From a virus: 29,704 nucleotides of DNA. Both the position numbers and the translations under genes were made by a program. The notes beneath the pieces were generated by a model that made no database searches, was not told the DNA's origin, and saw only the letters and a program-made list of their open reading frames with translations. Shown piece by piece: positions 146 through 15,740 of the stretch. The first letter of the stretch is position 1, and every line of letters begins with the position of its first letter. The stretch covers positions 1 to 29,704 of IMG/VR virus record IMGVR_UViG_3300042555_000631, one strand, 5' to 3'.

Positions 146-2222
146 TGTTATTGCAATACAATTGAATGCACAACAATACACAAAGTTCAATGGTTATGGC
201 TTTCAAGCAGATAGATTGAAAGCAGATAGTATTTCAATACATCCAAGCGATACAGTAAGAAACAAAGCAGCGAGAAGCATTGCAGTATTGAATGGAATGT
301 TTTATATTGCTGATGGAACAAAATGGAAAGTAGTTGGAACAGATACAACTTCACTTTCAAATAGGATTGATGCAAGGGTAAAGTATACTGATACTGCTTT
401 GATGCTTTCTCCTTATTTACGTAAGGCAGATACAACTTCACTTTCAAATAGAATAAATTTGAAGTTAAATATTGCGGATACTGCAACAATGCTTTCTCCT
501 TACTCTAAATTAAAAAGTGTAGGATTGTCAATGCCATCTGCTTTTAATGTGGCTAATTCACCTTTAACAAGCAATGGAACAATAGCAGTAACAGGAGCAG
601 GAACATCAAGTCAATATGTAAGAGGAGATGGGCAACTTGCAAACTTTCCGAGCAATGGGGGAGGTGGTTCATCGGTTAATTACTATTTAAATGGAAGTGT
701 TAATCAGGGAACAATTGGTGGTGATACTTACTACCAATTAAGTAAAGTACCTATAATAGGCACAGGAACTGATTTCACAAGAACAAATGCACAAGGTAAT
801 GGCTATATCGCTTCGTTTATTACGGATGCAGGAGACCCTGCTTTATTGAATATTCCAGGTGGTAATTGGAACTTAGAATTTTATTTTTCTGCTTCATCAG
901 GGGGTAGCACTCCATCGTTTTATGCAGAGATTTATAAGGTTAGTTCTGCCAATGTATTTACTCTTATTGCAAATGGCTCAACGAATCCTGAAGGCATTAC
1001 ACAGGGAACTGTTGTAGACCAATATTTTACTTCAGTTCCTGTCCCACAAACTACTATACTTGCAACCGATAGAATAGCAATAAGAATATTTGTAACAACA
1101 AGTGGAAGAACTATAACCTTACATACAGAAGACAATAATTTATCAGAAGTTTTAACTACGTTTTCAACAGGGTTAAATGCTTTGAATGGGCTTACTTCAC
1201 AAGTACAATACTTTGCAACAGGAACAAGCGGAAGTGATTTCAATATTTCATCTGCAACCAATACACATACATTTAATTTACCTACTGCATCAGGTGCAAA
1301 TAGAGGTGCTTTATCAAGTGCAGATTGGACTACATTTAATAATAAATTAAGTTTAAGTGATACATTTACAATCAGCACAAGAGCATGGAGGCAAAAAGGA
1401 TTGGATAGTTTGGCTGCTATTGAATTGAATGTTGCTGATACTGCAACAATGTTAAATCCTTATACAAGGGGAAGCGGAACAAATGGACAAGTTGCTTATT
1501 GGAATGCAACAAGAAGTTTGACAGGGAATAATAATTTATTTTGGGATAATACCAATGCAAGATTGGGGATTGGTACGACTACACCACAAAATACATTTGA
1601 TGTTGTAAGAGGAACTGCTGGTGCTATGTTAAGAAGTCAATATGAATCTGCATCTTTTTCTTTTAATGCTGATTCGAAAGTTGGAATATATACGGCTTCA
1701 TCAAATACTGCACATGGTGCGGGTTTAATTTTTGGGCAAACAAATCTTCAAGCAAGTTCTGTTTATCCATCTTTTGAAATACAATATGTTTATAGTTCAA
1801 CAGTAGCAGATAATAATTGGAGAGTAAATTATACAGGTAGAAGTTCAAGCGGATTGGTAACAACTTATGCAGCTAATTTATTTAATGTATATGCCGATGG
1901 AAGAGTAATATTAAATCCTGCTGCATCTGGTGTTACAGCAAGTGCAAAATTATTAATAGGAACATCAACCGACGCAGGCTTTAGATTAGATGTTAATGGA
2001 ACAGCAAGGGTGCAATCAACACTTAAAGTAGGAGCAACAACAACACAAAACGCATCAGCGGTTCTTGATGTTGAATCAACAACTCGTGGCTTCCTTCCAC
2101 CAAGAATGACAACAGCACAAAGAGATTTAATTGCAACCCCTGCAGCAGGACTTGTGATATATAATACATCAACAAACAAACATCAAGGGTACAATGGTAC
2201 AACTTGGAATGATTTCTATTAA
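114..2222 (+). CDS. Tail-fibre-like structural protein with N-terminal signal peptide
   Basis: 702 residues. Residues 1-20 look like a Sec signal peptide: Met-Met-Arg, a hydrophobic stretch (ICLLLVSVIAIQL) and a possible cleavage site after LNA. Residues 75-140 hold two repeats of about 29 residues (TDTTSLSNRI ... TATMLSPY), with a third partial copy near residue 440. The middle is Gly/Ser/Thr/Asn-rich and probably beta-structured. The last 80 residues have the pattern LDVESTTRGFLPPRMTTAQR ... IYNTSTNKHQGYNGTTWNDF, common at the C-terminus of Bacteroidota tail-fibre and surface proteins. It is followed 12 bases later by a small gene and then the lysis cassette, the usual place for a fibre gene. 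The second Met (base 117) is an equally possible start. A host-binding role is inferred. Confidence 0.75.
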   Translation: MMRVICLLLVSVIAIQLNAQQYTKFNGYGFQADRLKADSISIHPSDTVRNKAARSIAVLNGMFYIADGTKWKVVGTDTTSLSNRIDARVKYTDTALMLSPYLRKADTTSLSNRINLKLNIADTATMLSPYSKLKSVGLSMPSAFNVANSPLTSNGTIAVTGAGTSSQYVRGDGQLANFPSNGGGGSSVNYYLNGSVNQGTIGGDTYYQLSKVPIIGTGTDFTRTNAQGNGYIASFITDAGDPALLNIPGGNWNLEFYFSASSGGSTPSFYAEIYKVSSANVFTLIANGSTNPEGITQGTVVDQYFTSVPVPQTTILATDRIAIRIFVTTSGRTITLHTEDNNLSEVLTTFSTGLNALNGLTSQVQYFATGTSGSDFNISSATNTHTFNLPTASGANRGALSSADWTTFNNKLSLSDTFTISTRAWRQKGLDSLAAIELNVADTATMLNPYTRGSGTNGQVAYWNATRSLTGNNNLFWDNTNARLGIGTTTPQNTFDVVRGTAGAMLRSQYESASFSFNADSKVGIYTASSNTAHGAGLIFGQTNLQASSVYPSFEIQYVYSSTVADNNWRVNYTGRSSSGLVTTYAANLFNVYADGRVILNPAASGVTASAKLLIGTSTDAGFRLDVNGTARVQSTLKVGATTTQNASAVLDVESTTRGFLPPRMTTAQRDLIATPAAGLVIYNTSTNKHQGYNGTTWNDFY
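340..512 (+). repeat. 87-bp coding direct repeats in the tail-fibre-like gene
   Basis: The word starting CAGATACAACTTCACTTTCA occurs at 340 and again at 427, a period of 87 bp (29 codons). The linked word for DTAxMLSPY follows at about 385 and 478, and a diverged copy lies at about 1438. In-frame repeats of this kind are common in fibre stalks and allow length change by recombination. Confidence 0.75.
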
Positions 2223-8720: not shown

Positions 8721-8810
8721 TTTTTTTATAAATTTATGATAAATAATTGAAACAATAATTATTTCAATAACAAAGGTTATTATATAACCTACAATGAATT
8801 TTAATATCAT
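8718..8810 (-). CDS. Micro membrane peptide (30 aa)
   Basis: A 30-codon frame, MILKFIVGYIITFVIEIIIV then SIIYHKFIKK. It is one hydrophobic helix with a basic C-terminal end, which fits a single-pass inner-membrane peptide. The start overlaps the stop of the DnaA-like gene as ATGA, strong support for translation, and its stop begins the duplicated leader of ERF. Too short for gene finders. Role unknown. Confidence 0.6.
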   Translation of the reverse strand: MILKFIVGYIITFVIEIIIVSIIYHKFIKK

Positions 8811-9172
8811 ATCTGATTATTTAAGGTGTTAAAGTCATACATGAATCCATGCTCTTTGGTTGCAATGTAATCATGTGTTTGTTTCATGTGATGAACTATT
8901 GTTGTGTGATCTGATACCGAAGGATGAAGCATTGCAGCAATATTTGTAGTTGTCAAAGATGTATTCATACGCAAAAAATAAATGATAAATCTTCTGCATG
9001 AAACGTATTCTTTCTTTCTGTTTTTCTTTACCAATTGCTCAAATGATATTCCAAAATGATTGCAACAAATATCTATTATTCTATCTGTCTGCATCTTTTG
9101 AGATAGTTTAAATTCGCCGTCTAAATCTTTTGATTTGCGAAGTCCAGGTATTGCGTATGCGCTATAAATCAT
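8807..9172 (-). CDS. Stand-alone DnaA domain IV-like DNA-binding protein
   Basis: 121 residues. Residues 27-105 look like the C-terminal DNA-binding domain of DnaA: IIDICCNHFGISFEQLVKKN (helix with the usual IxxxVxxxFxIxxxxL spacing), then YVSCRRFIIYFLR, then NIAAMLHPSVSDHTTIVHHM. The S-D-H-T-T-I-V-H-H segment (87-95) matches the DnaA signature (R-D-H-T-T-V-x-H), which reads the CAC part of DnaA boxes. There is no AAA+ ATPase domain and no domain I. It may bind phage origin boxes (see 13619-13804) or compete with host DnaA. It lies between two micro membrane genes with stop/start overlaps on both sides. Confidence 0.8.
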   Translation of the reverse strand: MIYSAYAIPGLRKSKDLDGEFKLSQKMQTDRIIDICCNHFGISFEQLVKKNRKKEYVSCRRFIIYFLRMNTSLTTTNIAAMLHPSVSDHTTIVHHMKQTHDYIATKEHGFMYDFNTLNNQI

Positions 9173-10266: not shown

Positions 10267-12483
10267 ATGCTAAAACAAATCTTCACCGAATATAAATCAA
10301 TCGGACTTAAAGTAATTCCGATTGAATGGGATGTTGCTAATATGCAACCTGTAAGTCATCACAATTGGAGTGAAGATAAAGAATGGAAGTTGCAAGAAAA
10401 GCATAATGCAATTATGATTCAAACAAAGGATTGTTATGCTGCTATTGATGTGGACATTAAGAATAGTAATGACAAAGAACTTTTCACAAAGTGGTTAAAG
10501 ATTATTACCAACTCCGAGCCTGATATACTTGATAAAGTTTACATTGAGAAAACGAAATCCAATGGCTATCATGTTTGGATAAAATATTGTAAACTGACAA
10601 AGAAAACGCAACTTGCAGGAAATGAGAAAGGAGCAGAAGTAATTGCTTTATATGCTAACGGTCCTTTGGTTTATACTTACCCAACTCCAGGCTATTCTGA
10701 ATTTCATCAATCAATGGCAGATGTTGAAGAACTTACTGATGATGAATACAACTATCTTATTCAAGTATCACAATACTTCAATGAGTACAAACCAACGTAT
10801 GATCCTACAAAGAAAGCTATCAGCTACCCAAAAGGATTTGAAGCAGAGTTGTCAAATTATGACAAATCACTTTCTGACGAATCATGGGAACTGCTATTGA
10901 ATGACATTGGTTTAGAACCATTGCAAAACTTCAGATATAATAAGAAGGATTTATTTGCTGCATATAAGCGAAAGGAATCAACATCGAATGCTATTTCTGC
11001 AAAGGTTTACTTTAAAAGTAAAAGAGTATTATTATTCACAGCATCAATGCATGACTTCCCTAATTGGCATAACAAAGAACAATATCCGATATGGGCTTTA
11101 CCTCCATCATTTGTACTTTACTATAAGTTTGGCAGAGATTGGGATGCAGTATTGAAATACATCGGTTGCAGTAAGCCATTGGCTATTGATTTTCCTTTTG
11201 AGATATTCCCAGAAAAAATAAGGCAATCAATATTTGATGTAGCAAAGGAAAGGTCATTGAATCCTTTATTTCTTGCAACTGCAGGACTTTGGACTATATC
11301 TTCTTTAGCAGGAACTTGTTATACTTCTGCATTCGGAAACGATGGTAAGAACATTCTATTCTGCATGTTGATTGCTCCTGTATCTGTTGGTAAAACTCCT
11401 GCTTACAAAGCAATGTGTGAATCTCCATTAAAACAATTGCAAGAGATTGAAGATGAAAAATTCAAAACTGATGTTGCTAATTGGAATGCTGAAAAGATGC
11501 AAGCATTGAATGACAAGAAACAATTCACAAAACCAAAGCCAAAGCGATTCATCCCATTTGCAGTTGATGGAACTACTGAAGGTTACATCGGACTTTGCCA
11601 AGATCAATCGGCAGGAATAGGAGTGTATCATGATGAAGCAGAAACCATCCTAAATGCTGGTAGTTTCAAATCAAACAATGATTCTATCAGTTTCTTTACA
11701 CAAGCCTTTGGCGGTGGTAGATATACTCAAATTAGAGCAGATAGAGACAAAGAAAGAGTTGTGCAAGATTTGAACATCAATCTACTTATGGGAACGCAAC
11801 CAAGTAGAATGAAGAACATCTTTACTGAAGATAGAATCGCTAATGGTTTCGCATCCAGATTTCTTATGGTTGAATCTGAATACTTACAACTAAACGAAGA
11901 TGCAGATCCTTTCACAAGCAGTAGGCAGATATGTAATGAATGGGTTAATCTAATACATGACTTGTATAATGTTAATAAAACATATTGCGAGAATGAAGCA
12001 ACACCATTGCATATTGAAATAACTGAAGGGGCAAAACAATTGTATCGGAAGTATTATAAAGAGAATCTACAATCCGCAAATCAAAGAATTGCAGATAATA
12101 TCGAAGGTCATATTATCGGAACACAAGCAAAGATGTCAACCTACATTCCTCGATTAACACAACTGATTGCAATAATTAATCAACCTTTACAACCTATTGT
12201 TACTGAAGAAGTTGTGGAGTTAGGGCAGCGTTTATTTCGTTTCTATTCCAATAGTACGATTTCAATTATTTCAAAGATATTCATGGAAGCAGATACAGGA
12301 CTTCCTAATGATTTGGAATTACTTTACAATGCTTTGCCGGATACATTCACCAATAAACAAGCGGAAGAAACCTGCATCAAGTTGAATTTACCAAGTCGAA
12401 AGTATAAAATAGCACTCCGGCGGAAGGATTTTGGCAAACTATTTCGGAAGGTTAAACATGGAGAATATACTAAAACAACATAA
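10267..12483 (+). CDS. Primase-helicase (AEP-like primase domain plus DUF3987-like ATPase)
   Basis: 738 residues. The N-terminal part has primase-polymerase signs: A-A-I-D61-V-D63 (metal-binding DxD after a strand), then K-S-N-G-Y-H102-V-W (the SxxxH nucleotide-binding motif), and a GAEVIALYANGPLVYTYP stretch. The middle and C-terminal part has an ATPase core: Walker A-like A-P-V-S-V-G-K-T (370-377), Walker B-like V-Y-H-D-E-A-E (453-459), and NLLMGTQPSRMKNIF and NGFASRFLMV segments typical of DUF3987 helicase-like proteins. Together they would prime and unwind DNA at the phage fork. It is followed 3 bases later by the methyltransferase gene. The domain assignment is by motif; no separate DNA polymerase gene is seen in the window, so host polymerase is probably used. 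Confidence 0.85.
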   Translation: MLKQIFTEYKSIGLKVIPIEWDVANMQPVSHHNWSEDKEWKLQEKHNAIMIQTKDCYAAIDVDIKNSNDKELFTKWLKIITNSEPDILDKVYIEKTKSNGYHVWIKYCKLTKKTQLAGNEKGAEVIALYANGPLVYTYPTPGYSEFHQSMADVEELTDDEYNYLIQVSQYFNEYKPTYDPTKKAISYPKGFEAELSNYDKSLSDESWELLLNDIGLEPLQNFRYNKKDLFAAYKRKESTSNAISAKVYFKSKRVLLFTASMHDFPNWHNKEQYPIWALPPSFVLYYKFGRDWDAVLKYIGCSKPLAIDFPFEIFPEKIRQSIFDVAKERSLNPLFLATAGLWTISSLAGTCYTSAFGNDGKNILFCMLIAPVSVGKTPAYKAMCESPLKQLQEIEDEKFKTDVANWNAEKMQALNDKKQFTKPKPKRFIPFAVDGTTEGYIGLCQDQSAGIGVYHDEAETILNAGSFKSNNDSISFFTQAFGGGRYTQIRADRDKERVVQDLNINLLMGTQPSRMKNIFTEDRIANGFASRFLMVESEYLQLNEDADPFTSSRQICNEWVNLIHDLYNVNKTYCENEATPLHIEITEGAKQLYRKYYKENLQSANQRIADNIEGHIIGTQAKMSTYIPRLTQLIAIINQPLQPIVTEEVVELGQRLFRFYSNSTISIISKIFMEADTGLPNDLELLYNALPDTFTNKQAEETCIKLNLPSRKYKIALRRKDFGKLFRKVKHGEYTKTT

Positions 12484-12486
12484 ACT

Positions 12487-13566
12487 ATGAAAAATAAAAA
12501 ACACAATTTTCCCTACAAATGGACTTTAAAGGATGCAGTATTTACAAAAGACAAAGGCAAAGTATTTAGTTGCTTTGCATGTGGTGGTGGCTCTACAATG
12601 GGATATAAATTAGCTGGATTTGATGTGATAGGGCATAATGATATTGATAAAAAAATGATTGAAGTATATCAAGAAAATCATAAACCTAAATTTTCATTTT
12701 TAGAAAGTATTACAACTTTTGCAAAGCGTAAAGATTTACCTAAAGAACTTTATGAACTGGATATTTTAGATGGTTCGCCACCTTGTTCAAGTTTTTCAAT
12801 GGCTGGTAATCGTGAAAAGGATTGGGGAAAAGAAAAGAAATTTCGAGAAGGTCAAGAAATGCAGGTTTTAGATACATTGTTTTTTGATTTTATTGATTTG
12901 GCTAAAGAACTGCAACCGAAAGTGGTCGTTGCTGAAAATGTAAAAGGTCTTTTATTGGGTGCTGCTAAAGAATACGTTCGTAAAATTTACAACGCATTTG
13001 ATGAAGCTGGTTATTATTGCCAACACTTTTTGCTTGATGCTTCAAAAATGGGTGTACCTCAAAGACGTGAAAGAGTATTTTTTATTTGTTTACGCAAAGA
13101 TTTATCAAGTAAGTTTTTACATTGGCAAGATATGTTTACAGAAGTTCCGAAAATTGAAATGGAATTTAACGAGCCTGGTATATTATTTAGAGAAGTTTAT
13201 AATAATTATACGGATAGGCCACTATCTAAAAATATGAAAAAAATATGGGACTTAAGAATAATTGGAGATGGAGATTTTGAACATATAAATAAAAGAGAAT
13301 TTAACAGGCCAAATATTAATTTTAATCACAAATTTATTTATACAGACAGCTCTAATATTAATACAATTACAGCAGGAGACCAATGTGTTTTATTTGATGA
13401 ACCAAGATATAGAAATTTTGATGAACTTTGTAATTGTGGCACCTACCCAAAAGATTATAATTTTAAAAATAATAAACCTGAATATTTAATAGGAATGTCA
13501 GTTCCTCCAGTTATGACCGCACAAATAGCAAAACAAGTATATGACCAATGGTTATCAAAATTATAA
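12487..13566 (+). CDS. DNA (cytosine-5) methyltransferase
   Basis: 359 residues with the ordered C5 methyltransferase motifs: motif I F-S-C-F-A-C-G-G-G-S-T (27-37, a variant of DLFxGxGG), motif IV G-S-P-P-C100-S-S-F-S with the catalytic Cys, motif VI E150-N-V, motif VIII Q192-R-R-E-R, and near the end N-T-I-T-A-G (motif IX region) and IGMSVPPVMTAQIAKQVY (motif X). It transfers methyl from SAM to cytosine C5; the target is set by the variable region 200-320 and cannot be read. No restriction partner is nearby, so it is an orphan enzyme, probably protecting phage DNA from host restriction or marking the adjacent origin. It ends just before a strong terminator. Confidence 0.93.
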   Translation: MKNKKHNFPYKWTLKDAVFTKDKGKVFSCFACGGGSTMGYKLAGFDVIGHNDIDKKMIEVYQENHKPKFSFLESITTFAKRKDLPKELYELDILDGSPPCSSFSMAGNREKDWGKEKKFREGQEMQVLDTLFFDFIDLAKELQPKVVVAENVKGLLLGAAKEYVRKIYNAFDEAGYYCQHFLLDASKMGVPQRRERVFFICLRKDLSSKFLHWQDMFTEVPKIEMEFNEPGILFREVYNNYTDRPLSKNMKKIWDLRIIGDGDFEHINKREFNRPNINFNHKFIYTDSSNINTITAGDQCVLFDEPRYRNFDELCNCGTYPKDYNFKNNKPEYLIGMSVPPVMTAQIAKQVYDQWLSKL

Positions 13567-13586: not shown

Positions 13587-13612
13587 AAAGCACTATAAAA
13601 AGTGCTTTTTTT
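13587..13612 (+). terminator. Intrinsic terminator of the replication operon
   Basis: Perfect 8-bp stem AAAGCACT (13587-13594) and AGTGCTTT (13601-13608) with loop ATAAAA, running into a T-tract to 13612. Located 20 bases after the methyltransferase stop. Confidence 0.85.
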
Positions 13613-13618
13613 ATGTCG

Positions 13619-13804
13619 ATATGCACCTCATTTGCACCTCATTTGCACCTCTGAAACCCTTACCTGTAAAGGATATGCACCATAAACAGTGCTTTTCTAG
13701 AATTATTAGAAGTAAATATTATTATTATTAAAAAAAAAGTATTTCAAAAAAAATGGTGCATATGGTGCAAATCCTTACCACCATTGACTTTGAGAGGTGC
13801 AAAT
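13619..13804. repeat. Seven-iteron array, candidate replication origin
   Basis: The 9-mer ATWTGCACC occurs seven times in the non-coding region 13567-13883. Four copies point right at 13619, 13630, 13641 (exact 11-bp tandem) and 13673. Three copies point left at 13753-13763, 13762-13772 and 13794-13804. The two bases after the 9-mer are TC, TC, TC, AT on the right-pointing copies and AT, AT, TC on the left-pointing ones, a mirror order. The inner copies are part of a larger inverted repeat (13666-13683 and 13762-13778). The centre is A/T-rich. Each site holds the core TWTNCAC of a DnaA box. Iterons with an A/T-rich core beside primase genes fit an origin; operator function is the alternative. 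Confidence 0.65.
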
Positions 13805-13883
13805 CAAGTGTTTTTGAGGTGATTATGGTGTTTTTCAAAAAAATATTTTTTTATATCAAACACTTGTTTTAATTTTAAGTAAG

Positions 13884-14402
13884 TTGAAATGCAATCATTA
13901 CATAGAACAAATATATAAAAGCAAAGAAATAAACTCTTTTATTGCTTCAATTCATCCTGTTTCATTACAAGACGATTTAAGGCAAGAATTGGCTTTGGCT
14001 TTACTTTCTATCGACTGCGATAAAATAATCGAAATTTCGGCTTCTAATGGCTTAATGGGATACTCTATAAAGATTCTCAGCAACATGGCTTTCAGTAATA
14101 CATCACCTTTCTATAAAAAATTCAAAAAAGATGAGTATGAAAAAGCTATCGCCTACATGAGAAGTCAAATGAACTTACCTGTATTGAATCCTAAACTTTC
14201 TAAATTGGTAAATGAAAGATTATTACTAAAATACTCCATTGATGAAATGGAAGCACATGAAGCAATTCTATTCAATAAATACGTTGAAGTAAGAAGTTGT
14301 CAACAAGTTGCTGATTACTATTCAATTCCTTTAAAGCATGTCAAAGACGTTATTCGTAAAACTAAAAAAGAACTTAAAGACTTATGTACATCACAATTCT
14401 AG
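13884..14402 (+). CDS. Putative phage sigma factor (sigma-70/ECF-like), TTG start
   Basis: 172 residues from TTG at 13884; the next ATG would remove 58 residues including the conserved-looking LQDDLRQELALALLSI helix, so TTG is preferred. The N-terminal half is helical with the region-2-like DDLRQELALALL pattern. The C-terminal end (A-H-E-A-I-L-F-N-K-Y, then SCQQVADYYSIPLKHVKDVI and RKTKKELKDL) has the shape of a sigma region 4 helix-turn-helix. Bacteroidota phages often carry such a gene just before the packaging and structural genes, so it may switch on late transcription. Overlaps the next gene by 19 bases. The family call is by fold pattern, moderate confidence. Confidence 0.6.
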   Translation: MKCNHYIEQIYKSKEINSFIASIHPVSLQDDLRQELALALLSIDCDKIIEISASNGLMGYSIKILSNMAFSNTSPFYKKFKKDEYEKAIAYMRSQMNLPVLNPKLSKLVNERLLLKYSIDEMEAHEAILFNKYVEVRSCQQVADYYSIPLKHVKDVIRKTKKELKDLCTSQF

Positions 14403-14623: not shown

Positions 14624-14739
14624 TGAAGAACACTACTAACAACAAAACTTGCTTCGGTAAACGTAAGCATGGTAAAGCGAAGAAATCCTACAACAAAAAT
14701 GATAGGAAAGAACGCAATTATAGGGGGCAAGGAAGATGA
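14623..14739 (+). CDS. Basic mini-protein (38 aa)
   Basis: A 38-codon frame starting MKNTTNNKTCFGKRKHGKAK and ending YRGQGR, with about a third of residues Lys or Arg and no hydrophobic core. The start overlaps the previous stop (TAATG) and the end is ATGA-coupled to the glycosyltransferase. The tight coupling and the K-R-K-H-G-K-A-K-K-S-Y-N-K motif, which I recall from other Bacteroidota phages, support it being real. It may bind RNA or DNA; this is inferred from charge only. Confidence 0.65.
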   Translation: MKNTTNNKTCFGKRKHGKAKKSYNKNDRKERNYRGQGR

Positions 14740-15740
14740 GAGTATTAGGGCTAATGAGCAAGTGGTCGGGATGTGGTTGGCATCGTGTGATGTTACCATT
14801 GGCATTCCTGCCAGATAGCTATAACCATGTTACGAATATTCCTAGTGAAGAACTCTTCAAAGAAAGGCAGTTTGATATTTTACTTTATAATCGTTTCTGC
14901 TTCTTTGATAAAGATTGGGAACTCACAAAATCAATATTCAAAGTCGTAATGGATCTTGATGATGATTGGGAACTTCCTGTTAAACATCCTATGTATCACT
15001 TGTATAAAATGCAAGAAGAAAAGATACTTAACAATATAGCAAATGCTGACTTGATTACTGTTACAAATCAAAGGCTTTATGACAAGGTTTCTAAACTACA
15101 CAATAACGTCGTTATACTTCCGAATGCTATCCCTTTGGGTGAACATCAATATACTGATGAGAAACTTGAATCTGATTTAGTTCGTATCTTTTGGGCAGGT
15201 GGTTCATCTCATCTTGCTGATATGTCTATACTTCGCAATCCTATAAAGAGATTGAACGAACTTAACAATATCGAAATGGTCTTAGGGGGTTACACCGATA
15301 CAGATCCTGTATCAAAGGAATATTGGGTTAAGATGCATAATATCTTTACAAATGGCAATAGGTTTAAGAATAGGAAATTAGAAGGCACAATGCCAAACGG
15401 TTACATGGAGCATTATAAACATGCAGACATTATGCTAATACCTTTAGAAGATAGCAAATGGCATGGCTGCAAATCAAATCTAAAGATTCTTGAAGCAGCA
15501 AGTAAACGAATACCATGTATTGTGTCTAATGTTGAACCATACAATGTAGACAAAGACTGTCCTGTTTTATTTGTCAATAGTCAATCCGATTGGAATAAAC
15601 ATATCAAATATTTAGTTAACAATCCTGAAGAAAGGATAAAATTAGGAGAACAATTATATGAGTGGGCAAAAGAAAAATACAACTATCAAGAAATCAGCCA
15701 AAGAAGATTCGATGCATATTCAAGTCTTATTAAAGCATAA
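14736..15740 (+). CDS. Glycosyltransferase, GT-B fold (GT4-like)
   Basis: 334 residues. The start MRVLGLMSKWSGCGWHRVML is the N-terminal Rossmann strand and loop of a GT-B enzyme. Acidic D-L-D-D-D-W near residue 80, linker V-I-L-P-N-A-I near 125, and second-domain start L-V-R-I-F-W-A-G-G-S-S-H. The donor-binding site is C-K-S-N-L-K-I-L-E-A-A-S (about 245-256), the E-containing motif of GT4-type enzymes. It would move a sugar from a nucleotide-sugar to an acceptor; acceptor (DNA base, capsid or host glycan) unknown. It sits between sigma-like and terminase genes with a SAM methyltransferase two genes on, so the pair may modify the same target. Confidence 0.8.
   Translation: MRVLGLMSKWSGCGWHRVMLPLAFLPDSYNHVTNIPSEELFKERQFDILLYNRFCFFDKDWELTKSIFKVVMDLDDDWELPVKHPMYHLYKMQEEKILNNIANADLITVTNQRLYDKVSKLHNNVVILPNAIPLGEHQYTDEKLESDLVRIFWAGGSSHLADMSILRNPIKRLNELNNIEMVLGGYTDTDPVSKEYWVKMHNIFTNGNRFKNRKLEGTMPNGYMEHYKHADIMLIPLEDSKWHGCKSNLKILEAASKRIPCIVSNVEPYNVDKDCPVLFVNSQSDWNKHIKYLVNNPEERIKLGEQLYEWAKEKYNYQEISQRRFDAYSSLIKA

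Follow-up and report, generated by a model that had tools for sequence, protein, structure and literature searches.

Mirrored iterons behind a phage primase-helicase gene: a probable replication origin whose repeat word follows the predicted recognition helix of its proposed initiator

What are short repeats doing in mirror order behind a phage primase-helicase gene, and which protein reads them? The question is raised by the window, the whole 29,704-nucleotide stretch of viral DNA analysed here (IMG/VR record IMGVR_UViG_3300042555_000631, positions 1 to 29,704), in which copies of the word ATWTGCACC form an array downstream of the gene for a 738-residue primase-helicase, the proposed initiator (10267..12483, + strand). 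All evidence on the role of this array is comparative, and it makes the array, with a probability of roughly 85%, a phage replication origin whose reader is the primase-helicase that the phage itself encodes. The repeat word changes from relative to relative and, by this comparison, follows the recognition helix of a predicted winged helix at the C-terminus of that protein.

The array and its conserved layout

Within 186 bp, seven exact copies of ATWTGCACC, four forward and three reverse, flank a 73-bp centre. The forward copies are found at 13619..13627 (ATATGCACC), 13630..13638 and 13641..13649 (both ATTTGCACC), and 13673..13681 (ATATGCACC, the inner left copy), and the reverse copies at 13755..13763 (ATATGCACC, the inner right copy), 13764..13772 and 13796..13804 (both ATTTGCACC). 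The endings are mirrored as well, the outer copies reading ATWTGCACCTC and the inner ones ATWTGCACCAT. In both respects, the number and orientation of the copies and the order of their endings, a sequence-only reading of this DNA had been accurate; its remark that other exact copies were not noticed in the window has to be amended, as one more lies at 1293-1301 (-), within a long open reading frame (ORF), where it is attributable to chance. The window thus contains eight copies against 0.63 expected, a number that none of 100 dinucleotide shuffles reached, and the clustering of seven of the eight in 186 bp is far beyond chance. A degenerate eighth iteron, ATAATCACC, is located at 13818..13826 (-); two relatives, L010 and L011, carry it intact as ATATACACC. 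A probable degenerate fifth left iteron, ATAAACAGT, at 13682..13690 (+), corresponds to a second adjacent copy in relatives such as L047 and L054.

The centre (13682..13754) is 86% A/T and is the proposed melting site. The mirrored halves together make a long imperfect inverted repeat (13624..13821), a possible stem-loop, and the DNA of the window's array folds with a z-score of -3.8 (1 of 200 shuffles being equally stable), the range among 23 representative arrays being -2.2 to -9.1. Because inverted iterons give a long stem automatically, a functional role of the stem may not follow from these values. The spacers inside the two half-arrays, 13650-13672 and 13773-13795, are partly mirrored or repeated (AAACCCTTACC / AAATCCTTACC), with AAAGG and TAAGG preceding the inner iterons, and a TGATAATCA-like block occupies the half-array spacer position on both sides in other clades; these blocks are possibly the site of a second protein.

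Viral contigs scanned with the primase-helicase yielded about 140 loci, many of which overlap, and 64 distinct loci with the C-terminus of the primase-helicase and its downstream DNA constitute the comparison set. For a few loci with an ambiguous automatic class, the word was set by hand, and truncated or ambiguous rows were dropped from the subsets of 55 and 27 loci. In the 64 loci, a short-word array stands 3' of the primase-helicase gene, either immediately (for example, L011, L050, and L037) or past one cargo gene (the window, L010, L012, and L032), and it is weak in a few of them (L047, L048, and L123). The layout, established by this comparison, stays the same: forward copies sit near offsets 0, 10, 21, 53, and 62, and after a gap the reverse copies follow near 142-155 and 195-225. 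The words that fill it include ATWTGCACC, AAATACAC, ATAGTTAC, ATTCGCA, ATTCTCA, ATTTGCA, AAATTGC, AAAGTTC/AAGTTCA, AATGTTCA, TTTACAC, GTTTTAC, TTTAGCA, GAAACAC, TATGTAC, and AGTTAC, among others. The array centre is 67-92% A/T in 19 of the 23 representatives and has no clean limits in L013, L037, L136, and L137. Beyond these contigs, no relatives of the primase-helicase were confirmed when bacterial and archaeal genomes were scanned, a direct DNA search for the array among named phages gave low-complexity matches only, and the named-phage search for the primase found relatives only in unannotated gut contigs, at about 20-23% identity.

The winged-helix tail and the repeat word

The domain make-up of the primase-helicase, likewise established by comparison, consists of a PrimPol domain, a DUF3987 P-loop/AAA+ part, and a C-terminal winged helix. 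The protein matches Pfam DUF3987 (3e-29), a domain present in 18 of 18 cases. In an AlphaFold2 model built from 18 relatives, the N-terminal domain is a PrimPol closest to ORF904 of pRN1 (1rni; Z 13.8, root-mean-square deviation 3.5, 165 residues), and the AAA+ part, the core of which is modelled at low confidence, resembles MCM with Z about 9; a sequence search for solved structures of the protein gave no match. The proposed iteron reader is the tail, residues 681-738 (12307..12480, +), which, when folded alone by AlphaFold2, reaches a predicted local distance difference test score of 88 with an H-E-H-H-E-E pattern and gives VIA matches to the winged helices of Fur, BlaI, and MCM (Z up to 6.4). 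Foldseek found no match for this model in the PDB at E <= 0.001, and the winged-helix assignment therefore rests on secondary structure, VIA-align, and covariation. Residues 706-719, LNLPSRKYKIALRR (12382..12423, +), end in the predicted recognition helix, where the models place residue 715; the iteron bases vary with residues 714 and 715. Other proteins with the same winged helix, as possible Odn-like mimics, were sought among the ORFs of the fetched loci, and none was found there.

Comparison of the relatives indicates that the array word follows this recognition helix, and hence locates specificity in the C-terminal domain of the initiator. In a clade of 20 phages whose primases are about 95-98% identical, six combine a D715 helix with ATTCGCA and 14 an N715 helix with ATTCTCA (two of the latter contigs end before the array). 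Among 104 variable primase columns, only 706 (L/F), 715 (D/N), and 717 (M/I) separate the two words, and in a stricter gap-free set of 12 phages, 3 of 86 do so. When 16 ORF families of this clade are taken together, a few of them being overlapping frames and thus not all genes, seven of 795 variable columns are separating, including these same three. Natural chimeras point the same way. L033 and L062 are 100% identical at residues 501-690, 92-97% earlier, and 77% from there to the C-terminus (48 residues), and they carry different words (ATTTGCA and AAAGTTC, respectively). L033 and L042 are 78-80% identical at 501-690 with a tail that is 100% identical, and the word is common to both; L042 and L057 share 90-99% in four blocks before the tail and 72% in it, and their words differ.

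Across 55 loci, with whole-protein distance controlled and 12-residue windows, word difference is correlated with difference at residues 703-714 (partial r 0.76), as against at most 0.29 for windows that end before residue 690, and none of 2000 label permutations reached the value for residues 704-719 (p <= 0.0005). With the repeats aligned from DNA alone, residue 715 and base 8 rank first among 3906 residue-base pairs over the whole protein: D goes with G (5/5), N with T (10/10), and I, T, S, or V with A (17/17), counts that include related arrays and are not independent events. It should be noted that the statistical tests of the association are not fully independent of each other either. 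The pairing of N715 with T recurs in the unlike contexts FFN, FHN, FKN, and FRN, such as FKN with GTTCA in L035/L062, L041, and L101/L103/L113, and FRN with TGTTCA in L127. A one-to-one base rule was also tried for residue 714 and fails in some clades, K going with G in the FKN context and failing to do so in FKS; a firm rule is therefore claimed for 715 only. On a tree of residues 1-690, at least 10 word changes fall within the two largest clades. Dozens of natural initiator/origin pairs, including those with about 95-98% identical primases, are thus available for testing a winged-helix recognition code.

Origin function and competing explanations

How such an array would serve as an origin is suggested by the domain make-up and by PICI/SaPI, P4 alpha, and pRN1 (PMC6092414, PMC7581432, PMC4234260), from which the melting, loading, and priming steps are inferred. 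Each primase-helicase subunit would bind one 9-bp iteron directly through its C-terminal winged helix, and the mirrored half-arrays would position two oppositely facing assemblies around the A/T-rich centre. The AAA+ domains would melt the centre and then load outward on opposite strands, after which the first primers would come from the fused PrimPol domain. On this reading, the tail of the initiator and the neighbouring array (one cargo gene aside) change hands or mutate together, and replicon specificity therefore switches often in the family. More tentatively, and with odds somewhat against it, the winged helix and the mirrored array may form a swappable, fast-evolving cassette with a simple residue-to-base code, in which 715 sets one base and 714 influences its neighbours, diversified, as in PLE/Odn, by conflict between phages in co-infection, satellites, or nucleases directed at origins.

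Several observations weigh against an origin read by the primase-helicase. The array is weak or hard to assign in some loci (L047 and L123), the helicase core is a low-confidence part of the model, and GC skew, which the sequence-only reading had proposed as a check, has no clear switch at the array in the window. Two further residue-715 types are single cases, M with G in L056 and R with T in L138, and are given no weight. In addition, array and winged helix lie close together on the genome, and joint recombination alone would yield some association between them; given that the same residue-base pairing recurs in unlike contexts, linkage is probably not the whole story, an argument that limits the objection without removing it.

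Among the other explanations, one keeps the same reader and changes the purpose: the primase-helicase might bind the array mainly as a late-operon operator or switch, or for autoregulation, with replication starting elsewhere. The array does lie between a terminator and the gene that opens the downstream operon, and initiators often repress as well. However, PICI origins have the same build of mirrored halves and A/T-rich centre (PMC6092414), the window showed no second array, and the downstream gene varies between clades while the array stays, all of which make this explanation unlikely.

Still less probable is that the repeats are altered DnaA boxes bound by host DnaA or by a DnaA-like protein of the phage, as the sequence-only reading had proposed. 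The latter protein, 121 residues long (8807-9172, -), is a genuine solo DnaA domain IV (Pfam 1.8e-13), similar proteins recur in L013, L021, L057, L063, L114, and L123, and the iterons of the window's clade contain TWTNCAC. However, homologous arrays use words mostly unlike DnaA boxes (AGTTAC, AAGTTCA, ATTCGCA, AAATTGC, and GTTTTAC), and since the word is not kept across them, the repeats are not DnaA boxes as such; judged across clades, the resemblance to TTWTNCACA belongs to the window's clade. Nor do near-DnaA boxes reach chance frequency in the window, where TWTNCAC occurs 33 times against 46 expected, without enrichment; TTATNCACA with at most one mismatch is also rarer than expected (36 against 58). 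The helix-turn-helix of the DnaA-like protein is almost unchanged, and its recognition segment, SDHTTIVHHMKQ, the same, between the window phage and L013, whose word is ATAGTTAC; in L010 the segment is altered, although the L010 word, ATATGCACC, is that of the window. The 121-residue protein is therefore not the reader on present evidence, and this comparison of helix-turn-helix and word in the relatives led to its rejection as a candidate; speculatively, it may act on host DnaA boxes. The earlier proposal of an origin is well supported, if indirectly, whereas its DnaA boxes and DnaA-like reader are not. A likeness between phage repeats and the DnaA box can evidently be incidental.

The least probable alternative, a packaging (pac) or partition site read by the terminase small subunit or another neighbour, could appeal to a different, possibly terS-like gene directly after the array in L037 and L057 and to the window's own terS 2.6 kb downstream, but the next gene is unrelated in the window's clade, and none of the 58 variable columns of the ORF right after the array follows the word in the 20-phage clade, whereas the primase recognition helix does. 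The downstream sigma-like or terS-like protein was likewise rejected as the reader, having no matching columns and not being kept between clades.

Known systems and neighbouring genes

An origin read by the primase-helicase invites comparison with the pri-rep-ori modules of phage-inducible chromosomal islands (PICIs) and Staphylococcus aureus pathogenicity islands (SaPIs) (PMC6092414; SaPI Rep in PMC7581432). As there, the array stands 3' of the initiator helicase gene, two iteron sets flank an A/T-rich region, and specificity, as far as covariation indicates, resides in the C-terminal domain of the initiator. In contrast to these systems, the initiator here is a PrimPol-DUF3987-winged helix protein, a cargo gene often separates it from the array, and the element, which brings its own terminase, tail, and lysis genes, is a phage and not a satellite; it would thus work like a PICI without being one. 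A PICI-like origin layout is thereby placed, on comparative grounds, in phages with their own structural genes.

Other initiators share some of these features. ORF904 of pRN1 also fuses PrimPol to a helicase with a C-terminal winged helix, and the PrimPol folds match, but its helicase is SF3, while DUF3987 looks like an MCM-type AAA+ (with the low-confidence core noted above). The putative pRN1 origin lies 3' of the gene, measures about 100 bp, contains a stem-loop, and reportedly lacks iterons (PMC4234260); stem-loop potential exists here too, but the inverted repeat is made of iterons. The alpha protein of phage P4 likewise unites winged-helix origin binding, unwinding, and priming at repeats in one protein (summarised in PMC4234260), with a Toprim primase in place of the N-terminal archaeo-eukaryotic PrimPol found here. 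The PLE RepA/ori modules and the nuclease Odn are a further parallel (PMC8263062): the DNA-binding domain of RepA co-varies with the origin, specificity has been swapped repeatedly, and the modularity was shown experimentally; unlike here, RepA belongs to a satellite and is a RepA_N initiator with an N-terminal DNA-binding domain and iterons of about 30 bp. SCCmec Cch2 is likewise an AAA+ helicase with short iterons downstream of its gene, which its C-terminal domain binds in isolation, but it has a separate polymerase/primase, only three iterons, and no mirror layout (PMC7581432). In contrast to DnaA/oriC-type origins, conserved DnaA boxes are absent, the homologous arrays carrying non-DnaA words.

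In the accessible text of PMC5862659, DUF3987 is predicted to be a helicase and the C-terminal winged helix of PrimPol proteins is guessed to recognise origins; target sites are not named in that text, whereas covariation here points to the sites and to candidate residues for reading them. For a PrimPol-DUF3987 protein, whose DUF3987 is still of 'unknown function' in Pfam, this amounts to a proposed target site. What appears to be new is the mirrored-iteron origin layout in a phage family with such initiators, together with the sites targeted, the residues that are candidates for reading them, and how far specificity has switched in nature.

In the window, a C5 cytosine methyltransferase gene (12487..13566, +; Pfam 8e-49) lies as cargo between the initiator gene and the array, and the terminator that the sequence-only reading had placed before the array is real (an intrinsic terminator, 13587..13611, +). 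The position between primase-helicase gene and array is a cargo slot, holding unlike genes or none in relatives: 12221-13177 in L010, 3284-3937 in L012, 687-1295 in L065, 3108-3830 in L022, and 5069-5902 in L032. Several of the cargo genes are methyltransferase-like, and that of L022 is of another kind; the window's C5 methyltransferase is replaced or absent in L010, L012, L065, and L011, the slot being empty in the last. The first gene after the array, which opens the downstream operon (13884..14402, +), encodes a weakly sigma-70-like helix-turn-helix protein of 172 residues, its match to NCBIfam sigma70-ECF (E 0.003) remaining under the cut-off; homologues follow the array in several clades, and unrelated genes occupy this place in others. 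The virus's own genes for terminase, tape measure, head protease, and endolysin are present in the window. The terminase large subunit shares about 52% identity with that of Flavobacterium phages, a likeness that makes a Bacteroidota host likely. Downstream of the array, a glycosyltransferase gene at 14736-15740 belongs to the phage host-takeover family PHROG 7162 (1e-58).
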